DNA of 64,000 bases from Bacteroidota bacterium (GTDB taxonomy: Bacteria > Bacteroidota > Ignavibacteria > Kryptoniales > JAKASW01): contig JAJYIT010000021.1 of assembly GCA_021789975.1 (NCBI GenBank), positions 1-64,000 on the forward strand, given 5' to 3'. The position numbers and the translations under genes were made by a program. The notes beneath the pieces are model-generated. The model made no database searches. It was not told where the DNA came from and saw only the letters and a program-made list of their open reading frames with translations. Shown in pieces: positions 41,097 to 51,985 of the stretch (position 1 is the stretch's first letter; each line of letters starts with the position of its first letter).

Positions 41097-42533
41097 TTAT
41101 CGCAAATCAGTACGCTGGATCAATTGCAGCATCGGTTTCAAATCGGAGTAACTCACGTGCTGCCAGAGGCGAGCTTTCTGCGCTTGTGTAAGTCCAGCCA
41201 GCGGTATTGAAGATGGTACGGACGAAATCGCGACCATAGGAATATTGGAGCCGAACTTTTGGTTAATCGTTTGGATGAACAAATTTGCTATGTATGCGTA
41301 TCCCTGGGAGGTTGGATGAACTCCATCGAGTCCAAAGAATCCGCCTGTTATGTAGCTAGCTGACAGATCCACACCCTGGGCGACATATCCATCCTTAGCA
41401 AACGCATCCAGCGCCGTGTTCGCATTAAAAACGGCGACGCGTGATGGATTTGCCGCAGCAACCGCAGCGATCGCAGAGTTGTAACCGCTGATTGCGTTCT
41501 CGACTTTTGCAATCTCATAGGAGTCGAGGACATACTGATCAGGAAGCGGCCTGCCTGTGCCTCCTGGAATAGAAGCTGGAATACCAACTCCAGCCTCCAT
41601 CGAGTCGAGAGCCGTAAGACAGATCAGGTCCGTCTGAGGATTCGCTTGTGCCACGATAAGATTTCCGCTCGCATCATGCTTCTGAACAATAAGCGGAATC
41701 GGCTGACCGTTGATGAGAATCGGCTGCCTTGTAGCTGGATTCACAACCACCGCGGGAATAGTCGTGAAAAATGGAATCGCCGTTACATTGGGCAAGTTTC
41801 CCACCACGAACTTTGCGTTAGGGGCTCCTGTCAACAGGGCATTCATCATTCCCGCGAACATCAGCCCCCATTGGTTCGGATCTGTCGGACCAGACCCTGG
41901 ACCCAGTGTCCCGACGGTACCGCCGGAAGCAGCATACCCAAGTACATCGTTGGCACCTATCCAGACTGAGACAAACGTAGGATGGAGGTTCAGCGCCTGT
42001 GCGACAACTGAATTTCCAAAAGCTGAATTCCGAAGAATCATCGCGAAGAAAGGATTAGATCGTGCAATACTCTTCTGCAGGAAATTAGTTGTATCGATCA
42101 TATCATACAGCACGGCACCCGGTACGCCGAGATTGTTGTAAGGCCTTAGTAAGCTTGACGCGTCGGTAGGACTCGTCTGAGTCGGGGAAGCGGTACTGAT
42201 TGTCGGGCCAGAAAGACTTGTTATCGACATCATCGCTCCCGTTCCGGGATTTGGCATCAACGGTTGTTTGAAGGAGGCGTAGACCCCTGCCTCCCTCGCG
42301 ATATCGGCCGGATAGCTGTACTCTTGTGCGGATTCATACAGAGCACCCTCCTGGTACCCGGAAGTGAGAGAGTTGCCTATCGATACGTAAACCGAAAAAT
42401 CGACGCTGCCGTTAGAAGGCGGAGCGACCACGCTCGATTTCTTAAAATCCCCGCACGAGACCACCAGGACCGATATGATTAGGACGAACAATCCCGGCAG
42501 CAAAACTCTGGATGCAAAAAATCTTGGCTTCAT
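41097..42533 (-). CDS. SGNH/GDSL-family lipoprotein hydrolase
   Basis: A 478-residue lipoprotein with signal sequence and lipobox VVSC (Cys27). The catalytic domain has SGNH blocks: SIGNSLTSG (Ser55; GNSL instead of GDSL), a GANDVL segment (block III Asn) and DGVHPTSQG (Asp and His). Probably an outer-membrane or periplasmic esterase or lipase. The ATG at 42533 with GGAGAAAG is preferred to an upstream start giving 20 extra residues. It lies 67 bases downstream of a FadL-type channel gene and is probably in the same operon, suggesting action on hydrophobic esters whose products enter through that channel (inference). Confidence 0.82.
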   Translation of the reverse strand: MKPRFFASRVLLPGLFVLIISVLVVSCGDFKKSSVVAPPSNGSVDFSVYVSIGNSLTSGYQEGALYESAQEYSYPADIAREAGVYASFKQPLMPNPGTGAMMSITSLSGPTISTASPTQTSPTDASSLLRPYNNLGVPGAVLYDMIDTTNFLQKSIARSNPFFAMILRNSAFGNSVVAQALNLHPTFVSVWIGANDVLGYAASGGTVGTLGPGSGPTDPNQWGLMFAGMMNALLTGAPNAKFVVGNLPNVTAIPFFTTIPAVVVNPATRQPILINGQPIPLIVQKHDASGNLIVAQANPQTDLICLTALDSMEAGVGIPASIPGGTGRPLPDQYVLDSYEIAKVENAISGYNSAIAAVAAANPSRVAVFNANTALDAFAKDGYVAQGVDLSASYITGGFFGLDGVHPTSQGYAYIANLFIQTINQKFGSNIPMVAISSVPSSIPLAGLTQAQKARLWQHVSYSDLKPMLQLIQRTDLR

Positions 42534-42600
42534 TCTTTCTCCAATAAAATGTTTAGAAAACAACTCATCGTTTTGTGAAGATTTGTTGCTCATCCTGAAA

Positions 42601-43860
42601 CTAGAGTCTGTAGCTGATGTCCAGTCCCATCAGATTCGCCGTAGTATTATAAGTCCCGTCGAATCCATATGCCGAGGTCGTAATTGTCCTCTGCTTGAAC
42701 GGTAGGAACATGTAGAATGCGTCCAGGCCGACATTTTCCGTCAAGTTGACTCCAAGTCCGATATTCAATCCAAGTCGATCTGCATCGGGGAGGATCGGTA
42801 GATCATAGGAATCGGGCACAGGATTCTTATCATAGAAAACTCCAGCGCGGGCCGTCCACATGTTGTCGATCTCATACTCGCCACCGACGCGGAGAATATA
42901 GCTATCTTTATAGTCGCCCACGATCGGTGCCGGGTTCCCTGATCCAGGATTCTGGAAGGTTATGTTCAACTGTTTGTATGCACTCCAGCCGACAAACTGG
43001 TAGTCAGCTTCGACCGACCAATTCAATCCTTCGTAAGCGATACCAGCGTACCAGGTCGTCGGGAAAGGTAAAGAAGTCGAGACAGAACCACTCGGGAGTA
43101 GGGCGGAGAGTCCGTCGGCCCCGCTGTACGTCGCTGTACCATTATCTACCTTGAAATCAATCTTGCTTCTGTAGGAAAATCCGAGCGAAATGTTAGGATA
43201 TGGTTTCAAAAGTACCCCGAAGTTGTAACCGGTCCCGTTTGCGTTTCCTTTCATATCAATGAACGGCTCAACCGGATTTCCGGCAGGATCGCTGAACTGA
43301 GTGGAGTTATACTTCTGGAGCGTCACATTACCAAGTACATAGTCGAAGCCAACTCCCACTGATATTACATCACCGAGTGCGTACGCAATAGTGGGATTGA
43401 TGTCGAACGACTGAATGTTGACTTTTGTAATAATGAACTTGCCGACCCAATTTTGTGGCCAATCGGTGCCCAACCCTTCGGGGGTGAAAACGCCGACGCC
43501 CGCCGCAAACCCGTTGTCAAAATTGTAAGTAACGTACGCGTTAGGAGGATAGAACGCGAGCGAGTTCATCTTCCACTCGGTATTATTCGGATAAGGCCCG
43601 GTGAAAGTGGTGCTCGGCAAAATAAGTGTCGCCCCGGCCATAACATTTAAACCATTCGAGAAACCTAAACCCGCAGGATTGAAATAGATAGCAGAGGCGT
43701 CCCATGCCCGTGCCACAAAGGCGCCACCCATCGAGACGGCTCTTGCGCCGTGTTCGTTCAACTGATAGCCGCTGCCATAGACGACGGATGATGAAGTCAG
43801 GACCACTGCCGCAAGAATTGCCACCACAATACATCGTGGTGCGTCATATTTGTGTGCCAC
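42601..43860 (-). CDS. OmpP1/FadL family outer-membrane transport protein
   Basis: A 419-residue beta-barrel with a signal peptide of about 29 residues and the FadL N-terminal hatch signature (SGYQLNEHGARAVSMGGAF and SAIYFNPAGL with NPA). Family members import long-chain fatty acids or other hydrophobic compounds. The start is a GTG seven bases behind a strong AAAGGAGG site. It opens a probable operon with the SGNH lipoprotein and diverges from the Rossmann-protein gene at 43983. Confidence 0.88.
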   Translation of the reverse strand: MAHKYDAPRCIVVAILAAVVLTSSSVVYGSGYQLNEHGARAVSMGGAFVARAWDASAIYFNPAGLGFSNGLNVMAGATLILPSTTFTGPYPNNTEWKMNSLAFYPPNAYVTYNFDNGFAAGVGVFTPEGLGTDWPQNWVGKFIITKVNIQSFDINPTIAYALGDVISVGVGFDYVLGNVTLQKYNSTQFSDPAGNPVEPFIDMKGNANGTGYNFGVLLKPYPNISLGFSYRSKIDFKVDNGTATYSGADGLSALLPSGSVSTSLPFPTTWYAGIAYEGLNWSVEADYQFVGWSAYKQLNITFQNPGSGNPAPIVGDYKDSYILRVGGEYEIDNMWTARAGVFYDKNPVPDSYDLPILPDADRLGLNIGLGVNLTENVGLDAFYMFLPFKQRTITTSAYGFDGTYNTTANLMGLDISYRL

Positions 43861-43982
43861 AGAGTACCTCCTTTTTCGTTTGAGTTATGGGCTATTTTAA
43901 CGCATGGGACAAAGAAAAACAAACTTGTTCAAGGGACCTGCAACGGTTATTTTTCCTACACCCGAAAAGAAAGGAACCCACA

Positions 43983-45689
43983 ATGGAGATCAAAGGAAAA
44001 ACAGTCCTTGTTCTTGGTGGATGGGGCCTGGTGGGCTCTGCTGTCTGCCGAAAACTCGTGCCGGAAAAGCCGGACAGGATCATAGTTTCATCTCTCACAA
44101 AATCAGAATCACTTGATGCCGTAAAGCAACTCCGCAGCGAATATCCGCTTCTCATGCCCGATTTTTTTGTACCGTATTGGGGAAATATTTTTGTGCGAGA
44201 AGACTTCAAGGATCTTACACGCGATGAGATTATCAGTGACCCCGTCAAACGCCGGATACTCATCGCGGACACTCTTGAAGAACTATCCGATGAGACAATA
44301 AAATCCAGTTCTCTCTATAATCTCCTGACAGATTACAGGCCCGAAGTCATAGTAGATTGCATAAACTCCGCGACCGCGATCGCTTACCAGGATCAATTCC
44401 AATCAAGCCGCCTCCTATTGAAAGAACTCGACAGAGCAAAAGAAGGAAAGGCTAACACTCTCTACGAATCCATGGAGAAAGTTCTTTGCACTCTTTACAC
44501 CCCGCAGCTGATCAGACATGTGCAGATACTCTACAGATCAATGCACGATGCAGGGACAAGGATTTACGTGAAGATCGGGACAAGCGGTACCGGCGGCATG
44601 GGGCTGAACATACCATATACTCACAGTGAGGAAAAACCGAGCAGCGTCCTTCTCAGCAAATCGGCTGTCGCAGGCGCACACACGCTTTTAATGTTTCTGA
44701 TGGGCCGCACTCCGGACGCCCCGATAACGAAGGAAATAAAACCGACTGCGGCAATAGGCTGGAAGCGCATAGAATTTGGAGAAATCAAGCGACGAGGCAA
44801 ACCGATAATGCTGCAGGATTGTTCGCCAGATGATCCTTACTTGATCAATGATTCGCTCGAATTGAAAAATGCGGCAAAATCAGTGAAGACAGATGTGCCG
44901 CTTAGGTCGGTTTTCGTGGATACAGGCGAAAACGGGTTGTTCTCCCGCGGTGAGTTCGAAGCGATCACAACCCCGGGGCAAATGGAATACGTGACTCCGG
45001 AAGAAATTGCGGAGGATGTGATTTTTGAAATTAAGGGCGGGAACACCGGCCACGATATTATCAACGCTCTGGACAACGCTACACTTGCACCAACCTACCG
45101 TGCCGGTTACTTGTTCCACTCTGCGTTCTTAAAGATGAAAGAGCTGGAGGAAGAACACGACGTAGATAGCGTCGCCTTCGAATTGCTCGGGCCGCCTCGT
45201 CTGTCAAAGCTTCTCTACGAGAGCTACCTGCTTTCCAGACAGTTCCGCAATTTCAGCGCGGTAGGAAGTGTATCTGCAGATGAAATGTCTGCAACATTGT
45301 ACCAACTAATAAAGTCGGATAAGAAGTTGAGATCCGAGATTATTTCGATCGGGATACCCATACTCCTACCCGACGGGAAAAGTCTTTTGAGGGGCGACGA
45401 TATCAAGATCCCCCCGTTCAGAGGAGAGCCTGTCTTGCCTGCCAATCATAAATCGATAGACGCATGGGCACATGACGGCTGGGTCGACTTGAGAGTGCGC
45501 AATATGACGACTTGGAAAGAAAGATTGTGCGAGATACAGAAGATGACAGAGCCGATCCCCTCAGGCGAGACCAGCTCGCGGTATATCTATACGAGAGACT
45601 ACTGGAACAATTTCGAAAAGATAGAACCGGGTAAAGTCGTTGGATGGATTTTCTCTTATGAGGAGAAAGGGTTGAGGATGAAAGCGTAA
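43983..45689 (+). CDS. Large Rossmann-fold NAD(P)-binding protein, function unknown
   Basis: A 568-residue protein starting MEIKGKTVLVLGGWGLVGSAV, a dinucleotide-binding GxGxxGxxG-like motif of the extended SDR/epimerase type. A middle region contains IVDCINSATAIAYQD and GTSGTGGMGLNIPYTHSEE. The long C-terminal part has no recognised domain. I recall similar proteins in Bacteroidota/Rhodothermota annotated only as epimerase or short-chain dehydrogenase; no function is established. The ATG at 43983 is preferred because of the AAAGGA site, rather than an upstream ATG at 43887. It ends convergent with the duplicated ABC permease operon. Confidence 0.7.
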   Translation: MEIKGKTVLVLGGWGLVGSAVCRKLVPEKPDRIIVSSLTKSESLDAVKQLRSEYPLLMPDFFVPYWGNIFVREDFKDLTRDEIISDPVKRRILIADTLEELSDETIKSSSLYNLLTDYRPEVIVDCINSATAIAYQDQFQSSRLLLKELDRAKEGKANTLYESMEKVLCTLYTPQLIRHVQILYRSMHDAGTRIYVKIGTSGTGGMGLNIPYTHSEEKPSSVLLSKSAVAGAHTLLMFLMGRTPDAPITKEIKPTAAIGWKRIEFGEIKRRGKPIMLQDCSPDDPYLINDSLELKNAAKSVKTDVPLRSVFVDTGENGLFSRGEFEAITTPGQMEYVTPEEIAEDVIFEIKGGNTGHDIINALDNATLAPTYRAGYLFHSAFLKMKELEEEHDVDSVAFELLGPPRLSKLLYESYLLSRQFRNFSAVGSVSADEMSATLYQLIKSDKKLRSEIISIGIPILLPDGKSLLRGDDIKIPPFRGEPVLPANHKSIDAWAHDGWVDLRVRNMTTWKERLCEIQKMTEPIPSGETSSRYIYTRDYWNNFEKIEPGKVVGWIFSYEEKGLRMKA

Positions 45690-45838: not shown

Positions 45839-47092
45839 TTATTCATATCTCAGTGATTCGATAGGGTCCACGCTTGCAGCTTTGAATGCCGGATACACAC
45901 CGAACACCACCCCGACAAGCGAGCAGACCGCGAGACCGATGATTGCCCAGTCGAGCGGGAAGGCTGCCTTCATGTGTAATGCCAATGCGGCAAGATTGCC
46001 GCCTACCAATCCGAGCAAGACGCCCACTATTCCTCCTACCTCACAAAGCACAATTGCTTCGAGCAAGAACTGAGCAAGTATGTTCCTCTTCGTAGCGCCG
46101 ATAGATTTTCTCACGCCGATTTCCCGTGTTCGCTCGGTAACTCCGACAAGCATTATGTTCATTATGCCGACACCGGCCGCGAGAAGTGCAATCGCACTTA
46201 CAATGATCGCACCTACCCTTACATAAAATGTTATATGATTGAATTGGTCGATGAGAGCAGCGTTTGAGATCATCTCAAAATCATCGGGTTTCCCGGGAGG
46301 AACATCGCGTATCGCCCTCAGCATACCTTCCACTTGTTCTTCCGTCTCGGTAAACAATTTCTGGCTGGGAGCCTGCACATAAATATCCAGGCTTCGCTGC
46401 TCTCCGTACCTGGCGAGGAAAGTCGTAATTGGGATCATCATGTAGGGGCTTCCCTCCCCAACCAGGTTCCCCTGGTTTTTTATGACACCTACTACGCGAT
46501 ATCCTATCCCATCAACTTTGACTTTTTGTCCGAGAGGATCGCTGTGCGGAAATACATCCTTCGCCAGGACGGGATCGATTACGCAAACGAGAGCACTAAT
46601 ATCGATATCACTCTGGGTGATAGCTCTCCCCTCTCCGATTGGTTTATTTTCCGCCGAGAAGATGTCAGGTGTGACGCCCTGCAGGTCCGTATTGGGATTT
46701 GTCTCCTGCTTTCCGTGGCTGGCAATCCTTCCATCCCGGTCGCCCATAGCGCCGATACTGCTCGCAATGGTCGCTTCATTTCTGAGCCTTAGAACATCGT
46801 CGTAAGTCAGATTCTTCCTGTTCCAGTACTTTCTCCACCAACCCGGGCCGCCAGCATGGAACACGGGAAACTTAGTAATCTCAAACGTAGTCGAACCAAG
46901 TGAGTTGAGTTGACCCTCGATGTTATTCTGCATAACTCTCATCGCAGTGGTCACTGCGATAATTGAGAACACACCCACAATGATCCCGAGGAGGGTTAGG
47001 ATTGAGCGCAGCATATTGGCACGAATTGCAGCCACTGCCATTTTGAAGCTCTCGGACCACTCGGATAACAGGAAGCTAATTCTCTTGTTCAT
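45839..47092 (-). CDS. MacB-like ABC transporter permease (second copy, B type)
   Basis: A 417-residue permease with one membrane span near the N-terminus, a large periplasmic MacB_PCD domain (about residues 45-270) and three C-terminal spans including NIMLVGVTERTREIGVRKSIGA. No ATPase domain is attached, unlike E. coli MacB. Family members export peptides, lipoproteins or small molecules with a MacA/TolC partner. It is about three-quarters identical (by eye) to the gene at 48788-50035. A GTG at 47101 overlaps the preceding stop as GTGA; the ATG at 47092 gives the same beginning as the paralogue. Last gene of the operon. Confidence 0.85.
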   Translation of the reverse strand: MNKRISFLLSEWSESFKMAVAAIRANMLRSILTLLGIIVGVFSIIAVTTAMRVMQNNIEGQLNSLGSTTFEITKFPVFHAGGPGWWRKYWNRKNLTYDDVLRLRNEATIASSIGAMGDRDGRIASHGKQETNPNTDLQGVTPDIFSAENKPIGEGRAITQSDIDISALVCVIDPVLAKDVFPHSDPLGQKVKVDGIGYRVVGVIKNQGNLVGEGSPYMMIPITTFLARYGEQRSLDIYVQAPSQKLFTETEEQVEGMLRAIRDVPPGKPDDFEMISNAALIDQFNHITFYVRVGAIIVSAIALLAAGVGIMNIMLVGVTERTREIGVRKSIGATKRNILAQFLLEAIVLCEVGGIVGVLLGLVGGNLAALALHMKAAFPLDWAIIGLAVCSLVGVVFGVYPAFKAASVDPIESLRYE

Positions 47093-47097
47093 ATCAC

Positions 47098-48321
47098 TCA
47101 CTCGTATCTTAGTGCAACTACAGGATCCAGCTTCGACGCCCTCATAGCCGGTACAAGTCCGGAGATCACGCCGACGAATAGCGAAATAATGATCCCGATC
47201 AATGCGATTGATATCGGCATTGATGTCGGGAGAAATTTATCGACAAGCATACTGAGAGGATACGAAAGGCCGAGGCCGATCAGACCGCCGCCGAGACAGA
47301 TGAGAGTCGACTCGATTAGAAATTGAACGAGTATGGTTCGCCTCTTGGCGCCCAAAGCCTTGCGAACGCCGATTTCCTTGGTACGCTCAGTTACGCTCAC
47401 AAACATTATGTTCATTATACCTATGCCGCCTACGAACAGCGAGAGGGCAGTTATGAAAATTCCTACAGCTCCGATTACGCGTGCGATCTTGTCGAAGGCA
47501 TCAGTCAGCATGCTTTCCTGATTTATCGAGAAATCATCTTGCTGAAACGGAGAGAGACCTCTAATCTTCCTCATGATCCCTTCGAGTTCTGCCTGCGCGT
47601 TCGACATCTGTTTTTGATTCATAACCCTGCACTCGATTGAAGGAAAGAAGTGACGACCGTAAATGTCCCGGAACTGGTTTATAGGTATGATCACTTCATT
47701 GTCGAGGCTGAACATTCCCATAAAGCTGCCCTGCTTGCTCCTCACCCCGATGACCCTAAACGGCAGGCCGTCGATCTTTAGCTGCATGCCAATCGGGTGC
47801 CCGTTTGGAAACAGCTGATTTGCTACATCTGATCCAATGACAGCCACCGGCATGTTCCCTCGAGACTCAACATCCGTGAAGAAGCGGCCCTGTTGGAAAT
47901 TCATGCTCGCAACATAGGCATAAGCGGATGTAGTACCTTCCACTTGGACATTCTCCGCAGTCCTATTCTTGTATTTAATGGTGCCGAGTCTCTGAACCAT
48001 GGGGGCCACGGCCGAAAGAAGCGTCGCCTGTTTGCTTATCTCCCCCGCGTAATAGACGTGCATTCGTCTCCGATCTCTGTATTTCCACCACAACCCGTGA
48101 CTTAGCCACGGCCATTTTTGCACGTAAAGAACGTCGGCCCCAATCGAAGAAATGCTTGAGTTAAAGGCCTTGTTCAGTCCCTCGATAGCCGAACCCATCA
48201 AAGTGACCGAAACAATTCCGATAATTATGCCGAGCATTGTCAGTACGGCCCTCGCCTTGTTTGCCATCAAAGCGGCAATTGACAGTTTCATTCCTTCCTT
48301 GAGCTCTACACCGAATGTCAT
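47098..48321 (-). CDS. MacB-like ABC transporter permease (second copy, A type)
   Basis: A 407-residue permease with the same four-span plus periplasmic-domain layout: MacB_PCD after the first span, then [25 protein letters not shown] near the C-terminus. It is the partner of the B-type permease, with which it overlaps by four bases, and a close paralogue of the gene at 50028-51254. The A/B pair presumably forms a heterodimer. ATG start preceded by GGAG. It follows a 466-base gap after the first pair, which may carry its own promoter. Confidence 0.85.
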   Translation of the reverse strand: MTFGVELKEGMKLSIAALMANKARAVLTMLGIIIGIVSVTLMGSAIEGLNKAFNSSISSIGADVLYVQKWPWLSHGLWWKYRDRRRMHVYYAGEISKQATLLSAVAPMVQRLGTIKYKNRTAENVQVEGTTSAYAYVASMNFQQGRFFTDVESRGNMPVAVIGSDVANQLFPNGHPIGMQLKIDGLPFRVIGVRSKQGSFMGMFSLDNEVIIPINQFRDIYGRHFFPSIECRVMNQKQMSNAQAELEGIMRKIRGLSPFQQDDFSINQESMLTDAFDKIARVIGAVGIFITALSLFVGGIGIMNIMFVSVTERTKEIGVRKALGAKRRTILVQFLIESTLICLGGGLIGLGLSYPLSMLVDKFLPTSMPISIALIGIIISLFVGVISGLVPAMRASKLDPVVALRYE

Positions 48322-48787
48322 CTTTCAATCTCCAATTGCGTAATCCTTTCTCCCGCAGATCTCTGGTAGTTACACTTTCCAACAAGAGGATGGATTCCCG
48401 GTAATATCGGGCATATGGAGTTCTCAACAGACTTGAACATCCATTTGTTCACATTGGGCGTAGTCCTCCCATCCCAGCAGACTACATATTCGGATGCGAG
48501 CGAGAAATCTCGCTGCAGCGACGATGATCCGACTTCCGGTGACTTAAATTTCACGTATGTTGGTCCTTCAGCAATTCAAAACTAACGCCCCGCATCCCCC
48601 TGCGCGGCAATGGTGCTTTGCAAACACTCAACCGGGCTGTATCCCTACTCCTTCACTATCTAGTACATCCATCCAGCAACGACTCCCGCCAATTTGCCAT
48701 CTCCCGGAATATCCCGAGTGGAGACTCGAACAGCAATCCCAAATACAGCGCATCGTTTCGATCACACCGAGATGAATATCCACATTA
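48322..48787. other. Non-coding gap between the duplicated permease pairs
   Basis: About 466 bases interrupt an otherwise overlapping operon. Short frames here (48318-48554 minus, 48557-48775 plus) look spurious. The DNA contains a CCCG...CGGG inverted word around 48396-48410, similar to intergenic words near 462. It may be the joint of the duplication and could carry a separate promoter for the second pair. Confidence 0.4.
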
Positions 48788-50035
48788 CTACTCATACCTT
48801 AACGATTCAATCGGGTCAACGCTCGCGGCTTTGTATGCTGGATAAACTCCAAAAGTCACTCCCACTATCGAGCAAACAATCAGGCCAATCATCGCCCAAT
48901 CGACCGGGAACGCGGCCTTCATGTGCATTGCGAGTGCGGCTAAGTTTCCTCCGACTAGACCGAGCAAAATTCCTACTACTCCGCCTACCTCGCAAAGCAC
49001 CACAGCTTCGAGGAGAAACTGGGCGAGGATGTTTCGCCTCGTAGCGCCGACAGATTTGCGCACGCCGATTTCTCTAGTCCGCTCAGTAACTCCGACGAGC
49101 ATGATATTCATAATGCCGACTCCGGCGGCAAGCAGCGCAATTGCGCTGATGACAATCGCCCCGATCCTGACGTAGAAGGTTATTTGGTTGAACTGATCCA
49201 CGAGCGATGCATTCGAAATGATTTCAAAATCATCCTCTTTACCGGGCGGCACGTTCCTGATAGAGCGTAGAATTCCTTCGACCTGCTCCTGTGCAGCCTG
49301 GAAAGTCTTTTGATCAGCAGACTGTATATAGACATCCAGGCTCCGCTCTTTCCCATACCTGGCAAAGAAAGTACTAATCGGTACCAGCATATATGGCTGT
49401 CCGCCCCCGACTACATTCCCTTCATCCTTTATTGTGCCGATCACCCTGTAACCGATCCCGTCCACCTTCACTTCCTCACCGAGTGGGTCGGTATGTGAGA
49501 AAAGGGTTTTGACAAGATTCGGGTCAATGACACATACCAGCTGACCTGTCTCCACGTCGCTTTGACTCAGAGGCCGCCCCTCATCGATCTTCTTATTCTG
49601 GGCAACGAAAATGTCAGGCGTGATCCCTGAGATAGACAGATTCGGATTTGTCTTTTGACCGTTATACTGTGCAATCTTTCCACCTCTATCGGCCTGCGCT
49701 CCAACGCTGCTGGCTAATGTGGCTCGCTCCTTTAGCCGCAGTACTTGCTCGTAGGTAATATCTTTCCGATTGTGATACTTCTGCCAGGAACCGGGACCAC
49801 CGGCGTGGAAGACGGGCCACTTCGAAATTTCAAACACGTTCGAACCTAAAGAGTTGAGCTCTCCCTCAATGTTGTTCTGCATGACACGCATTGCAGTCGT
49901 GACGGCAATTATGGAGAACACTCCAATAACAATTCCGAGCAGCGTCAGCGTTGATCGGAGCTTGTTGGAGCGGATCGCAGCAAGTGCCATATAGAAACTC
50001 TCGCTCCACTCTGACCAAAGAAAACTCTTATTCAT
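48788..50035 (-). CDS. MacB-like ABC transporter permease (first copy, B type)
   Basis: A 415-residue permease in the same architecture as 45839-47092: N-terminal span, periplasmic domain, and NIMLVGVTERTREIGVRKSVGATRR with three C-terminal spans, ending DPIESLRYE. The ATG at 50035 overlaps the A-type stop by eight bases (ATGAATAA). An upstream start at 50071 would overlap much further and is rejected. Confidence 0.85.
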   Translation of the reverse strand: MNKSFLWSEWSESFYMALAAIRSNKLRSTLTLLGIVIGVFSIIAVTTAMRVMQNNIEGELNSLGSNVFEISKWPVFHAGGPGSWQKYHNRKDITYEQVLRLKERATLASSVGAQADRGGKIAQYNGQKTNPNLSISGITPDIFVAQNKKIDEGRPLSQSDVETGQLVCVIDPNLVKTLFSHTDPLGEEVKVDGIGYRVIGTIKDEGNVVGGGQPYMLVPISTFFARYGKERSLDVYIQSADQKTFQAAQEQVEGILRSIRNVPPGKEDDFEIISNASLVDQFNQITFYVRIGAIVISAIALLAAGVGIMNIMLVGVTERTREIGVRKSVGATRRNILAQFLLEAVVLCEVGGVVGILLGLVGGNLAALAMHMKAAFPVDWAMIGLIVCSIVGVTFGVYPAYKAASVDPIESLRYE

Positions 50036-51254
50036 ATCGCAATGCCTCCACAGGGTCCAGTTTGGATGCACGCATAGCCGGTATCAATCCGGAAACAAGC
50101 CCCACCAGAAGCGAGATCAGGATTCCGGTTATTGCAATTGAGAAAGGCATGGAAGTCGGGAGAAACTTGTCGACCAGCATACTGAGCGGGTAAGAAAAAG
50201 CGAGGCCGAGCAGGCCGCCACCGAGACAAATCAGAGAGGACTCAATCAGAAATTGTACAAGTATGGTTCGTCGTTTTGCACCGAGTGCCTTTCTAATCCC
50301 GATCTCCTTGGTCCTCTCTGTAACGCTCACGAACATGATGTTCATAATCCCGATTCCGCCGACGAATAAAGACAATGCAGTCACGAACAATCCGACGCCA
50401 CCGATAATGCCGGCAATCCTGTCGAATGCTCTCGTCAGCAAGTCCTGCTGATTTATTGAAAAATCATCCGACTGAAGCGGTGAAAGGCCCCGAATCTTGC
50501 GCATTATCCCCCGCAACTCTTCACGTGCGTTGTCCATGTCGCTTGGGTCGGCGACACGAGCCTCTATGGAAGGATGGAAATGCTTCCCGTAAATGTCCTG
50601 AAACTGCCCCATCGGTATGATTACGACGTTGTCCAGGCTGAACATTCCCATGAAGCTTCCTTCTTTGCTCCGCACGCCGATTACTCTGAAAGAAAGCCCG
50701 TTCACTTTGAGCTTCTGACCTACAGGCTCTCTGTTGGGAAAGAGCTGGTCGGCGACGTCCGAACCAATGACCGCGACAGGTCTATTGCCGCGCGACTCCT
50801 CGTAGGTGAAGAAGCGGCCGTCGGTGAACTCCATTTTGGAAACATACATGAAGTCGGAAGTTGTTCCTTCCACCTGAACATTGTTCGCAGTTATGTTCTG
50901 GTACTTAAGCGTACCGAGCCGGCCGACAACCGGTGCGACTGCGGCAAGCAACGTGGCGTCCCTTTTTATTTTTTCCGCATAGTCGATCTCAAGATCCTTT
51001 CGATTCCTGAACTTCCACCATTCACCGCTGGTATCCATCCATGGCCACTTCTGCACGTAAAGTACATCTGCGCCAATTGAAGCTATGCTGTTGTTGAAGG
51101 CACGTGTTAAACCTTCGATGGCAGCACCCATCAGCGTTACGGAAATTATTCCGATAATGATGCCCAGCATAGTAAGAACTGCTCTTGCCTTGTTGGCCAT
51201 TAATGCCATAAAAGAAAGCTTCAGCCCTTCCCGAAACTCGCCCCCGAAAGTCAT
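50028..51254 (-). CDS. MacB-like ABC transporter permease (first copy, A type)
   Basis: A 408-residue permease paralogous to 47098-48321. It has the N-terminal span, a MacB_PCD periplasmic domain, and [25 protein letters not shown] near the C-terminus. It overlaps the ATPase stop by four bases and the following B-type permease by eight, so ATPase, A and B are translationally coupled. Confidence 0.87.
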
Positions 51255-51985
51255 ACTTGCACTTTCTCCATTACTTGGGGTGACTTCACCTTACCGTTCT
51301 TCGCAATTGGAAGATCGCTTTCAATTCCACCATCTCTGATCCTTATGATTCGCTTCGCATGTTCCGCGATATATTCTTCATGGGTGACCAGAATTATCGT
51401 GTTACCTTTCTTGTACAACTCTTCAAGGAAGAGCATAATTTCGTCACCCGTTTTAGAATCGAGGTTACCGGTGGGTTCGTCGGCCAGTATAATCGAAGGG
51501 TTGTTGATCAGCGCCCTGGCGATTGCCACACGCTGTCGCTGCCCGCCGGACAACTCATTGGGCTTGTGATGCACTCTTTCGCCGAGTCCGACCATCTCAA
51601 GGGTCTTCTTTGCCCGATCCTTCCGTTCAGACGCGGGGACGCCGCTATAGATTAGCGGCAACTCCACATTGTGAAGCGCATCCGACCTGGGAATCAAATT
51701 GAATGTCTGAAAGACGAAGCCAATCCCTTGGTTTCGTATCTTAGCCAGCTCGTTGTCATCCATATCGCTTACGTTGACGCCATCGAACAGGTACAAACCG
51801 CTCGTGGGTGTGTCCAAACAACCCAAAATATTCATGAGTGTCGTCTTGCCGGATCCCGATGGTCCCATAATGGCCACATATTCACCTCTCTCAATCGACA
51901 GAGATATTTCTTTAAGAGCCTGGACCTGCACTTCGGCTCCCATGTCATATACTTTATTTACCTTTACCAGCTCGATTACTCTCAT
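51251..51985 (-). CDS. MacB/LolD-type ABC transporter ATP-binding protein
   Basis: A 244-residue ATPase with Walker [10 protein letters not shown], a Q-loop in VFQTFNLI, signature [15 protein letters not shown], Walker [12 protein letters not shown] and switch histidine in VTHE. It should energise export through the A/B permeases. It is the only ATPase in the operon, although there are two permease pairs. Overlaps the MacA-like gene stop by four bases. Confidence 0.92.

Follow-up and report, generated by a model that had tools for sequence, protein, structure and literature searches.

In the 64,000-nucleotide window, a stretch of contig JAJYIT010000021.1 from a Bacteroidota bacterium, a gene for an uncharacterised protein of 568 residues, called T here, lies between genes for a FadL-type channel and a MacB-type permease (Table 1). 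The frame at 43983-45689 (+) encodes 568 residues up to its stop codon, the same interval is stop-rich and non-coding on the opposite strand, and the family is conserved; the protein proposed in the initial annotation is therefore upheld. The mechanically called ORF is longer, starting at 43887 and encoding 600 aa. The start at 43983 is preferred, because Met1 is invariant in an alignment of 103 sequences and the putative ribosome-binding-like AAAGGAA is present 6 nt upstream.

Table 1. Features of the T locus, with positions in the window.
Feature	Position	Strand	Basis
T coding sequence, 568 residues and stop	43983..45689	+	Met1 invariant in 103 sequences; same-length homologues in 201/291 class genomes
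Putative ribosome-binding-like AAAGGAA, 6 nt 5′ of ATG	43970..43976	+	Inference from reading the sequence
Predicted SDR-type Rossmann domain with insertions, residues 1 to ~370	43983..45092	+	AlphaFold2 model; VIA-align; Foldseek
GxxGxxG nucleotide-binding motif, residues 12-18	44016..44036	+	In 62 wide-spread sequences G12 and G18 never vary and G15 hardly does
GTSGTGGMGLNIPYT, residues 199-213, SDR Ser/Thr position	44577..44621	+	Model (low-confidence loop) and alignment
VLLSK, residues 222-226, YxxxK Lys present and Tyr missing	44646..44660	+	Columns of 93 sequences
Predicted C-terminal helical domain, residues 366-568	45078..45686	+	Modelled alone; no fold match in PDB
FadL-type outer membrane channel, divergent	42601..43860	-	PF03349, E 6.2e-60
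GDSL-type lipase/esterase	41097..42593	-	PF00657, E 3.5e-8
MacB-type ABC permease, convergent	45839..47101	-	PF12704, PF02687

The orientations and the Pfam matches agree with the reported arrangement, in which the FadL channel and the esterase are divergent from T and the exporter is convergent with it. On the minus strand at 45839-51985 there are two consecutive MacB-like permease pairs, then one ATPase gene and one membrane fusion protein gene, making up a duplicated exporter. The FadL and GDSL genes are beside T in 8 and 7 of 101 loci, respectively, all of them from the window or its genus. A MacB-type gene accompanies T in 18 of the 101 loci and is convergent in other families too. Of the lipid and export setting that had been suggested for T, the local adjacency is thus borne out and the lipid link does not extend beyond the genus; the MacB association is wider, and neither yields a function.

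Pfam yields nothing for the window protein at E<=0.01, NCBIfam nothing close to a cut-off, and no characterised family in Pfam, NCBIfam, or the PDB sequences matches it over its full length, as the initial annotation had anticipated. Within the literature searched, by topic and by short motifs as text, no relevant report on T was found. The closest Pfam family is approached without being reached, the window protein scoring 11.7 bits against PF02719, below the gathering threshold of 20.2, and 24 of 62 T members match this family at E<=0.01 (best 7e-6). By profile the nearest known sequences are UDP-GlcNAc 4,6-dehydratases (3pvz, E 4.7e-5; 6bwc, E 0.0075), and outside the T family it is bacterial PF02719-like proteins that score highest. 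This similarity is confined to the first 60-160 residues.

T is a real and widespread protein family for which there is no named family, and the view that it is conserved and unassigned holds. Among 291 genomes of the class with completeness of at least 95 %, 221 have a match at E<=0.001, of which 20 were judged by E-value to be weak or partial, leaving 201 genomes with full-length T. Two of these 20 (G584 and G512) may be cut by contig ends, and one (G183) is a relic. In the nearest genomes there is a T match in 33 of 41. A phylum-wide draw gave matches in 67 of 296 genomes, 58 below E 1e-140 and nine weak or partial, and in a second phylum, which holds 'Deferribacteres bacterium JdFR-76' and BMS3Bbin03, full-length T is present in 34 of 82 genomes. 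Named contigs gave 137 candidate T loci, of which 80 were retained, from Kryptoniota, Ignavibacteria, Melioribacter, Stygiobacter, and others. No relatives were found in 72,556 plasmids, in 50,697 phages, or in viral contigs, and a viral, phage, or plasmid origin was rejected on these sets.

The family is old and strongly conserved. The lowest identity among T relatives is 36 %, the copy of Stygiobacter electus 09-Me (L071) is 62 % identical, and within the genus of the window T is 79-82 % identical (eight loci, two from one genome), far beyond chance and higher than PurL (75-78 %, six loci), FadL (59-74 %), and GDSL (55-65 %). T is retained in genomes of 1.7-2.0 Mb (G604, G605, and G469-G473). 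It can also be lost. In G183, all that is left is a relic of about the final 100 codons (L215:2792-3091), which contains a stop and is flanked by the conserved neighbours PurL, EIIA, and HisS; in the family to which this relic belongs T is often lost. The T of L085 and L032 has one in-frame stop codon, at residue 557 of 566, perhaps an error or the beginning of decay.

The AlphaFold2 model made from 103 sequences has a pLDDT of 88.1 and a pTM of 0.84. Over model residues 1 to ~371 it aligns in VIA-align with SDRs at Z 16-17 (rmsd 3.3-4.1 over ~200-243 residues), and its best Foldseek E is 7.8e-7, Pen/CapD and PglF being the top matches. The predicted model therefore has a Rossmann fold of SDR topology. 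Together with the GxxGxxG at residues 12-18, also kept in the 103-sequence alignment, this supports the view that the protein begins like an NAD-dependent epimerase. The segment GTSGTGGMGLNIPYT, previously placed beyond the Rossmann part, instead lies at the end of strand beta-5 within the SDR domain, based on alignment to the extended-SDR pattern and on the model. In this segment G199, G202, G204, G205, M206, G207, P211, and T213 are invariant among 62 sequences, and T200 is kept in 92 of 93, followed by Ser/Thr and then Gly. The YxxxK pair of classical and extended SDRs is incomplete. Its Lys (K226) is kept in 91 of 93 sequences, and column 222, where the Tyr would be, has V in 70 of 93 and Met in six, the other residues listed being K, L, Q, R, D, and N, with no Tyr among them. 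Candidates for the residue that would take over from the Tyr are H179, K197, H214, E216, and K226. At the end of strand 2, alignment by eye places a Ser where an acidic residue marks NAD+ preference. Across the 62 sequences, with identity down to 36 %, 55 columns are invariant, many of them charged and around the expected active site. Two conserved loops (213-215 and 356-365) are poorly ordered in the model.

Residues 366-568, folded alone from 93 sequences, have a pLDDT of 86.8 and a pTM of 0.84. Foldseek against the PDB gave a best E of 2.1, VIA-align on 61 chains a maximum Z of 2.5 (rmsd 4.2 over 74 residues), and a PDB sequence search nothing below E 0.75; no Pfam family matched more than one of 93 members at E<=0.1. 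FAR, KARI, and other two-domain dehydrogenases do not appear in the VIA listing, an absence that excludes nothing. This part is confidently predicted to be helical and is unmatched in the PDB, and a new fold is not claimed for it. The initial description of several hundred residues with no recognisable domain is therefore to be shortened, since the SDR fold runs to ~370 and only 366-568 is unmatched; the proposed structure comparison succeeded for the first part and gave no PDB match for the second. On the models, T would represent a new SDR-fold family, probably NAD(P)-binding, with a predicted family-specific helical C-terminal domain.

Gene neighbourhoods were compared in 140 oriented loci, in which some genomes are present twice (e.g. 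L115/L178 and L050/L200). A same-strand partner within 150 nt of T is present in 58 of the 140, and T is alone in most. The partners vary by lineage, with RsuA-T-Cmk (nine loci each), IspG-T (seven), ALDH-T (six), T-PurN (six), and E1-T (three), and Kbl is within the IspG-T operons in three loci. Across several families of genomes (L132, L135, L140, L142, and L144), secreted-looking ORFs of ~1600 aa are downstream of T or T-PurN. In two related genomes T is within a gene cluster for phenylacetate catabolism. The operon is ECH-E1-T in L126 and E1-T in L127, with gaps of 20-30 nt around T, and in both it sits between paaZ...paaG and paaDCBA. PaaZ, PaaJ/PcaF (3-oxoadipyl-CoA thiolase), PaaG, and PaaA, B, C, and D of L126 are above the NCBIfam cut-offs, and PaaI and PaaH are slightly under the cut-off or partial matches. 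In L125 the order is E1-E2-T. The E1 beside T is a fused alpha-beta 2-oxo acid dehydrogenase, under the pyruvate-dehydrogenase cut-offs. Catabolic partners of T were counted at 18/182 against 19/1406, a comparison that is circular, the reference proteins having been picked from those same neighbours.

A number of candidate roles based on individual neighbours were rejected. Replacement of DXR, prompted by IspG directly 5′ of T in seven loci, is refuted, as all 41 relatives have DXR (TIGR00243) above the cut-off, including the 33 with a T match. A partnership in acyl-CoA oxidation was set aside on the presence of ETF alpha in 40 of the 41 relatives, whether T is present or not. Indolepyruvate oxidoreductase is not an obligate partner; of the 291 genomes 51 have IorA, T being present in 26 of these and missing in 25, therefore T does not track that pathway. 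Likewise, for threonine dehydrogenase, prompted by the Kbl neighbours, G415 has T beside both Kbl and a 346-aa Tdh-like protein (read by eye), and T is therefore not needed for that step there.

Evidence of a different kind comes from sites at which T is missing. In genus g25 (family f10), T of G206 is flanked by a PTS-EIIA gene on one side and a small gene on the other. In all four T-less genomes of this genus that were opened, G448, G449, G080, and G446, an aminotransferase of 397-417 aa is beside PTS-EIIA at the T site. Both genes that flank the aminotransferase in G448 also flank T in G206, and in G446 IorA and IorB are also at the site. Among the loci of this genus, L227, L228, L229, and L230 show the aminotransferase at the T site, the last with IorAB. 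The nearest solved relatives of the aminotransferase are the KAT II homologue PH0207, a multiple-substrate aminotransferase, and LysN.

When the 291 class genomes were searched at a preset limit of E<=1e-120, the aminotransferase was found in 17, and 16 of these are without full-length T, the exception being G447, which has both. Outside g25, the genus of discovery, T is missing in 12 of 12 genomes with the aminotransferase (eight genera) versus 74 of 272 without it (Fisher p 3e-8 for all genomes and 3e-7 without g25, ignoring relatedness; 8 of 8 when counted by genus). Within g150, another genus, seven of the eight genomes listed (G415-G421) have a readable T and no aminotransferase, and G414 is the reverse. 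Elsewhere the aminotransferase clusters with a PaaK-like phenylacetate-CoA ligase, an ACT-like protein (named by eye, with no NCBIfam match), and/or IorAB, that is, with genes which would oxidise aromatic 2-oxo acids to arylacetyl-CoA.

It is proposed, with a probability of roughly 0.3, that T acts at the node between amino acids and 2-oxo acids, probably the aromatic ones. Two independent lines suggest such a step, the paa cluster with its 2-oxo acid dehydrogenase and the recurrent mutual exclusion of T and an aminotransferase that in other lineages feeds IorAB/PaaK. T would carry out an NAD(P)-linked oxidative deamination, or the reverse, without the usual SDR tyrosine. The 2-oxo acid would then be converted to arylacetyl-CoA by a 2-oxo acid dehydrogenase (E1/E2) or by indolepyruvate:ferredoxin oxidoreductase. 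A KAT II/LysN-type PLP aminotransferase would be able to do the same job, and lineages having it are mostly without T. The NAD(P) cofactor is putative here, as are the substrate, the direction, and the chemistry. This reading is weakened because 74 of the 90 T-less class genomes are also without the aminotransferase at E<=1e-120, because the IspG, RsuA/Cmk, and PurN neighbours fit no amino-acid theme, and because persistence in genomes of 1.7-2.0 Mb is odd for a catabolic enzyme. The fuller version, in which T is the first SDR-fold (or other PLP-free) aromatic amino-acid dehydrogenase, lacking the Tyr, capped by a new helical fold, and repeatedly exchanged for a PLP aminotransferase, is improbable.

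The anticorrelation of T and aminotransferase may reflect way of life rather than equal function. Strict anaerobes gaining a module of PaaK, ACT-like protein, aminotransferase, and IorAB would need no T, whose function would be unrelated, and this explanation is about as probable as the proposed role. PaaK orthologues nearly exclude T as well, with 10 of the 11 genomes that have one being without T, and IorA is mildly commoner where T is missing (25 of 90 T-less versus 26 of 201 T-bearing genomes); the solitary position of T in most loci fits too. However, seven genomes with the aminotransferase and without a PaaK orthologue are all T-less, and the swap in g25 is at an identical site with the same neighbours. 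G447, furthermore, has T beside the whole module, so having the module is not enough for T to be lost.

A less probable but serious alternative is that T is a nucleotide-sugar SDR, such as a dehydratase or an epimerase, that branched off from CapD/PglF with a new cap domain, a bound NAD(P), and no catalytic Tyr. The profile neighbours (3pvz, 6bwc, and PF02719) and the Foldseek neighbours are of this type, and WbpM and PglF, which belong to this branch, are described in a review (PMC8987622) as having Met in place of the SDR Tyr, both being active. The main contextual hint is a glycosyltransferase 2 gene no more than two genes downstream of T in the divergent loci L160, L161, L162, L163, and L167. 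Set against this, the likeness stops within the first 60-160 residues, and of the residues named for PglF catalysis in the same source, Thr395, Asp396, and Lys397 (PMC8987622), only the Thr has an equivalent in T, which has Thr-Ser/Thr-Gly at these positions (Thr-Ser-Gly for the PglF triad) and so lacks a PglF-type Thr-Asp-Lys followed by Met/TyrxxxLys. Most of the 140 loci have no sugar genes adjoining T, and the aminotransferase exclusion is left unexplained. The sequence argument is better, and the genomic argument weaker, than for a step between amino acids and 2-oxo acids.

It is unlikely that T shares the catabolic neighbourhood of the main proposal but works at a different step, with an acyl-CoA, an aldehyde, or a 2-hydroxy acid as substrate instead of an amino acid. 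Partners within 150 nt include ALDH (six), E1 (three), Kbl (three), thiolase (two), enoyl-CoA hydratase/FadB (two), and methylmalonyl-CoA epimerase (one), families found in 14 of the 58 loci with a same-strand partner at that distance, but they were chosen after being seen, which makes the enrichment circular, and ETF alpha, taken to stand for acyl-CoA oxidation, is distributed irrespective of T. That T is a sensor or scaffold which binds NAD(P) without catalysing a reaction, as the missing canonical Tyr and the two poorly ordered loops could suggest, is very improbable given 55 invariant columns, many charged around the expected active site, as is typical of enzymes.

About two-thirds of the well-assembled genomes of the class keep an enzyme-like protein that no curated family names and part of which is unmatched in solved folds. 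If the proposed role at the amino acid/2-oxo acid node is true, T would be an unrecognised route between the two, with a reaction new to the SDR fold, and the exclusion of T and aminotransferase would narrow the choice to a few candidate substrates.

Among known systems, the PF02719 (Polysacc_synt_2) proteins CapD, FlaA1, PglF, and WbpM share with T the GxxGxxG start and the SDR fold and are its top profile and Foldseek neighbours, and WbpM and PglF, according to the review cited above (PMC8987622), likewise work without the SDR Tyr. T differs from these dehydratases in not keeping Thr-Asp-Lys and in having the extra predicted helical domain at 366-568, and the window protein has no member-level assignment to their family. 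The fatty acyl-CoA reductases consist of an SDR domain and a helical C-terminal domain. They resemble T in this plan and in length; T has no Pfam match, and its helical domain no match among PDB chains, which does not exclude likeness. Amino-acid dehydrogenases are of the Glu/Leu/Phe/Val type, the Ala type, and the diaminopimelate type. They catalyse the reaction proposed for T, but no Pfam family of amino-acid dehydrogenases matches T over its length, its predicted fold is instead of the SDR type, and amino-acid dehydrogenases are not known to have an SDR fold. The KAT II/LysN-type PLP aminotransferases (PH0207 and Thermus LysN) have an unrelated fold, a different cofactor, and no homology to T, and it is with these enzymes that T is proposed to be functionally interchangeable.
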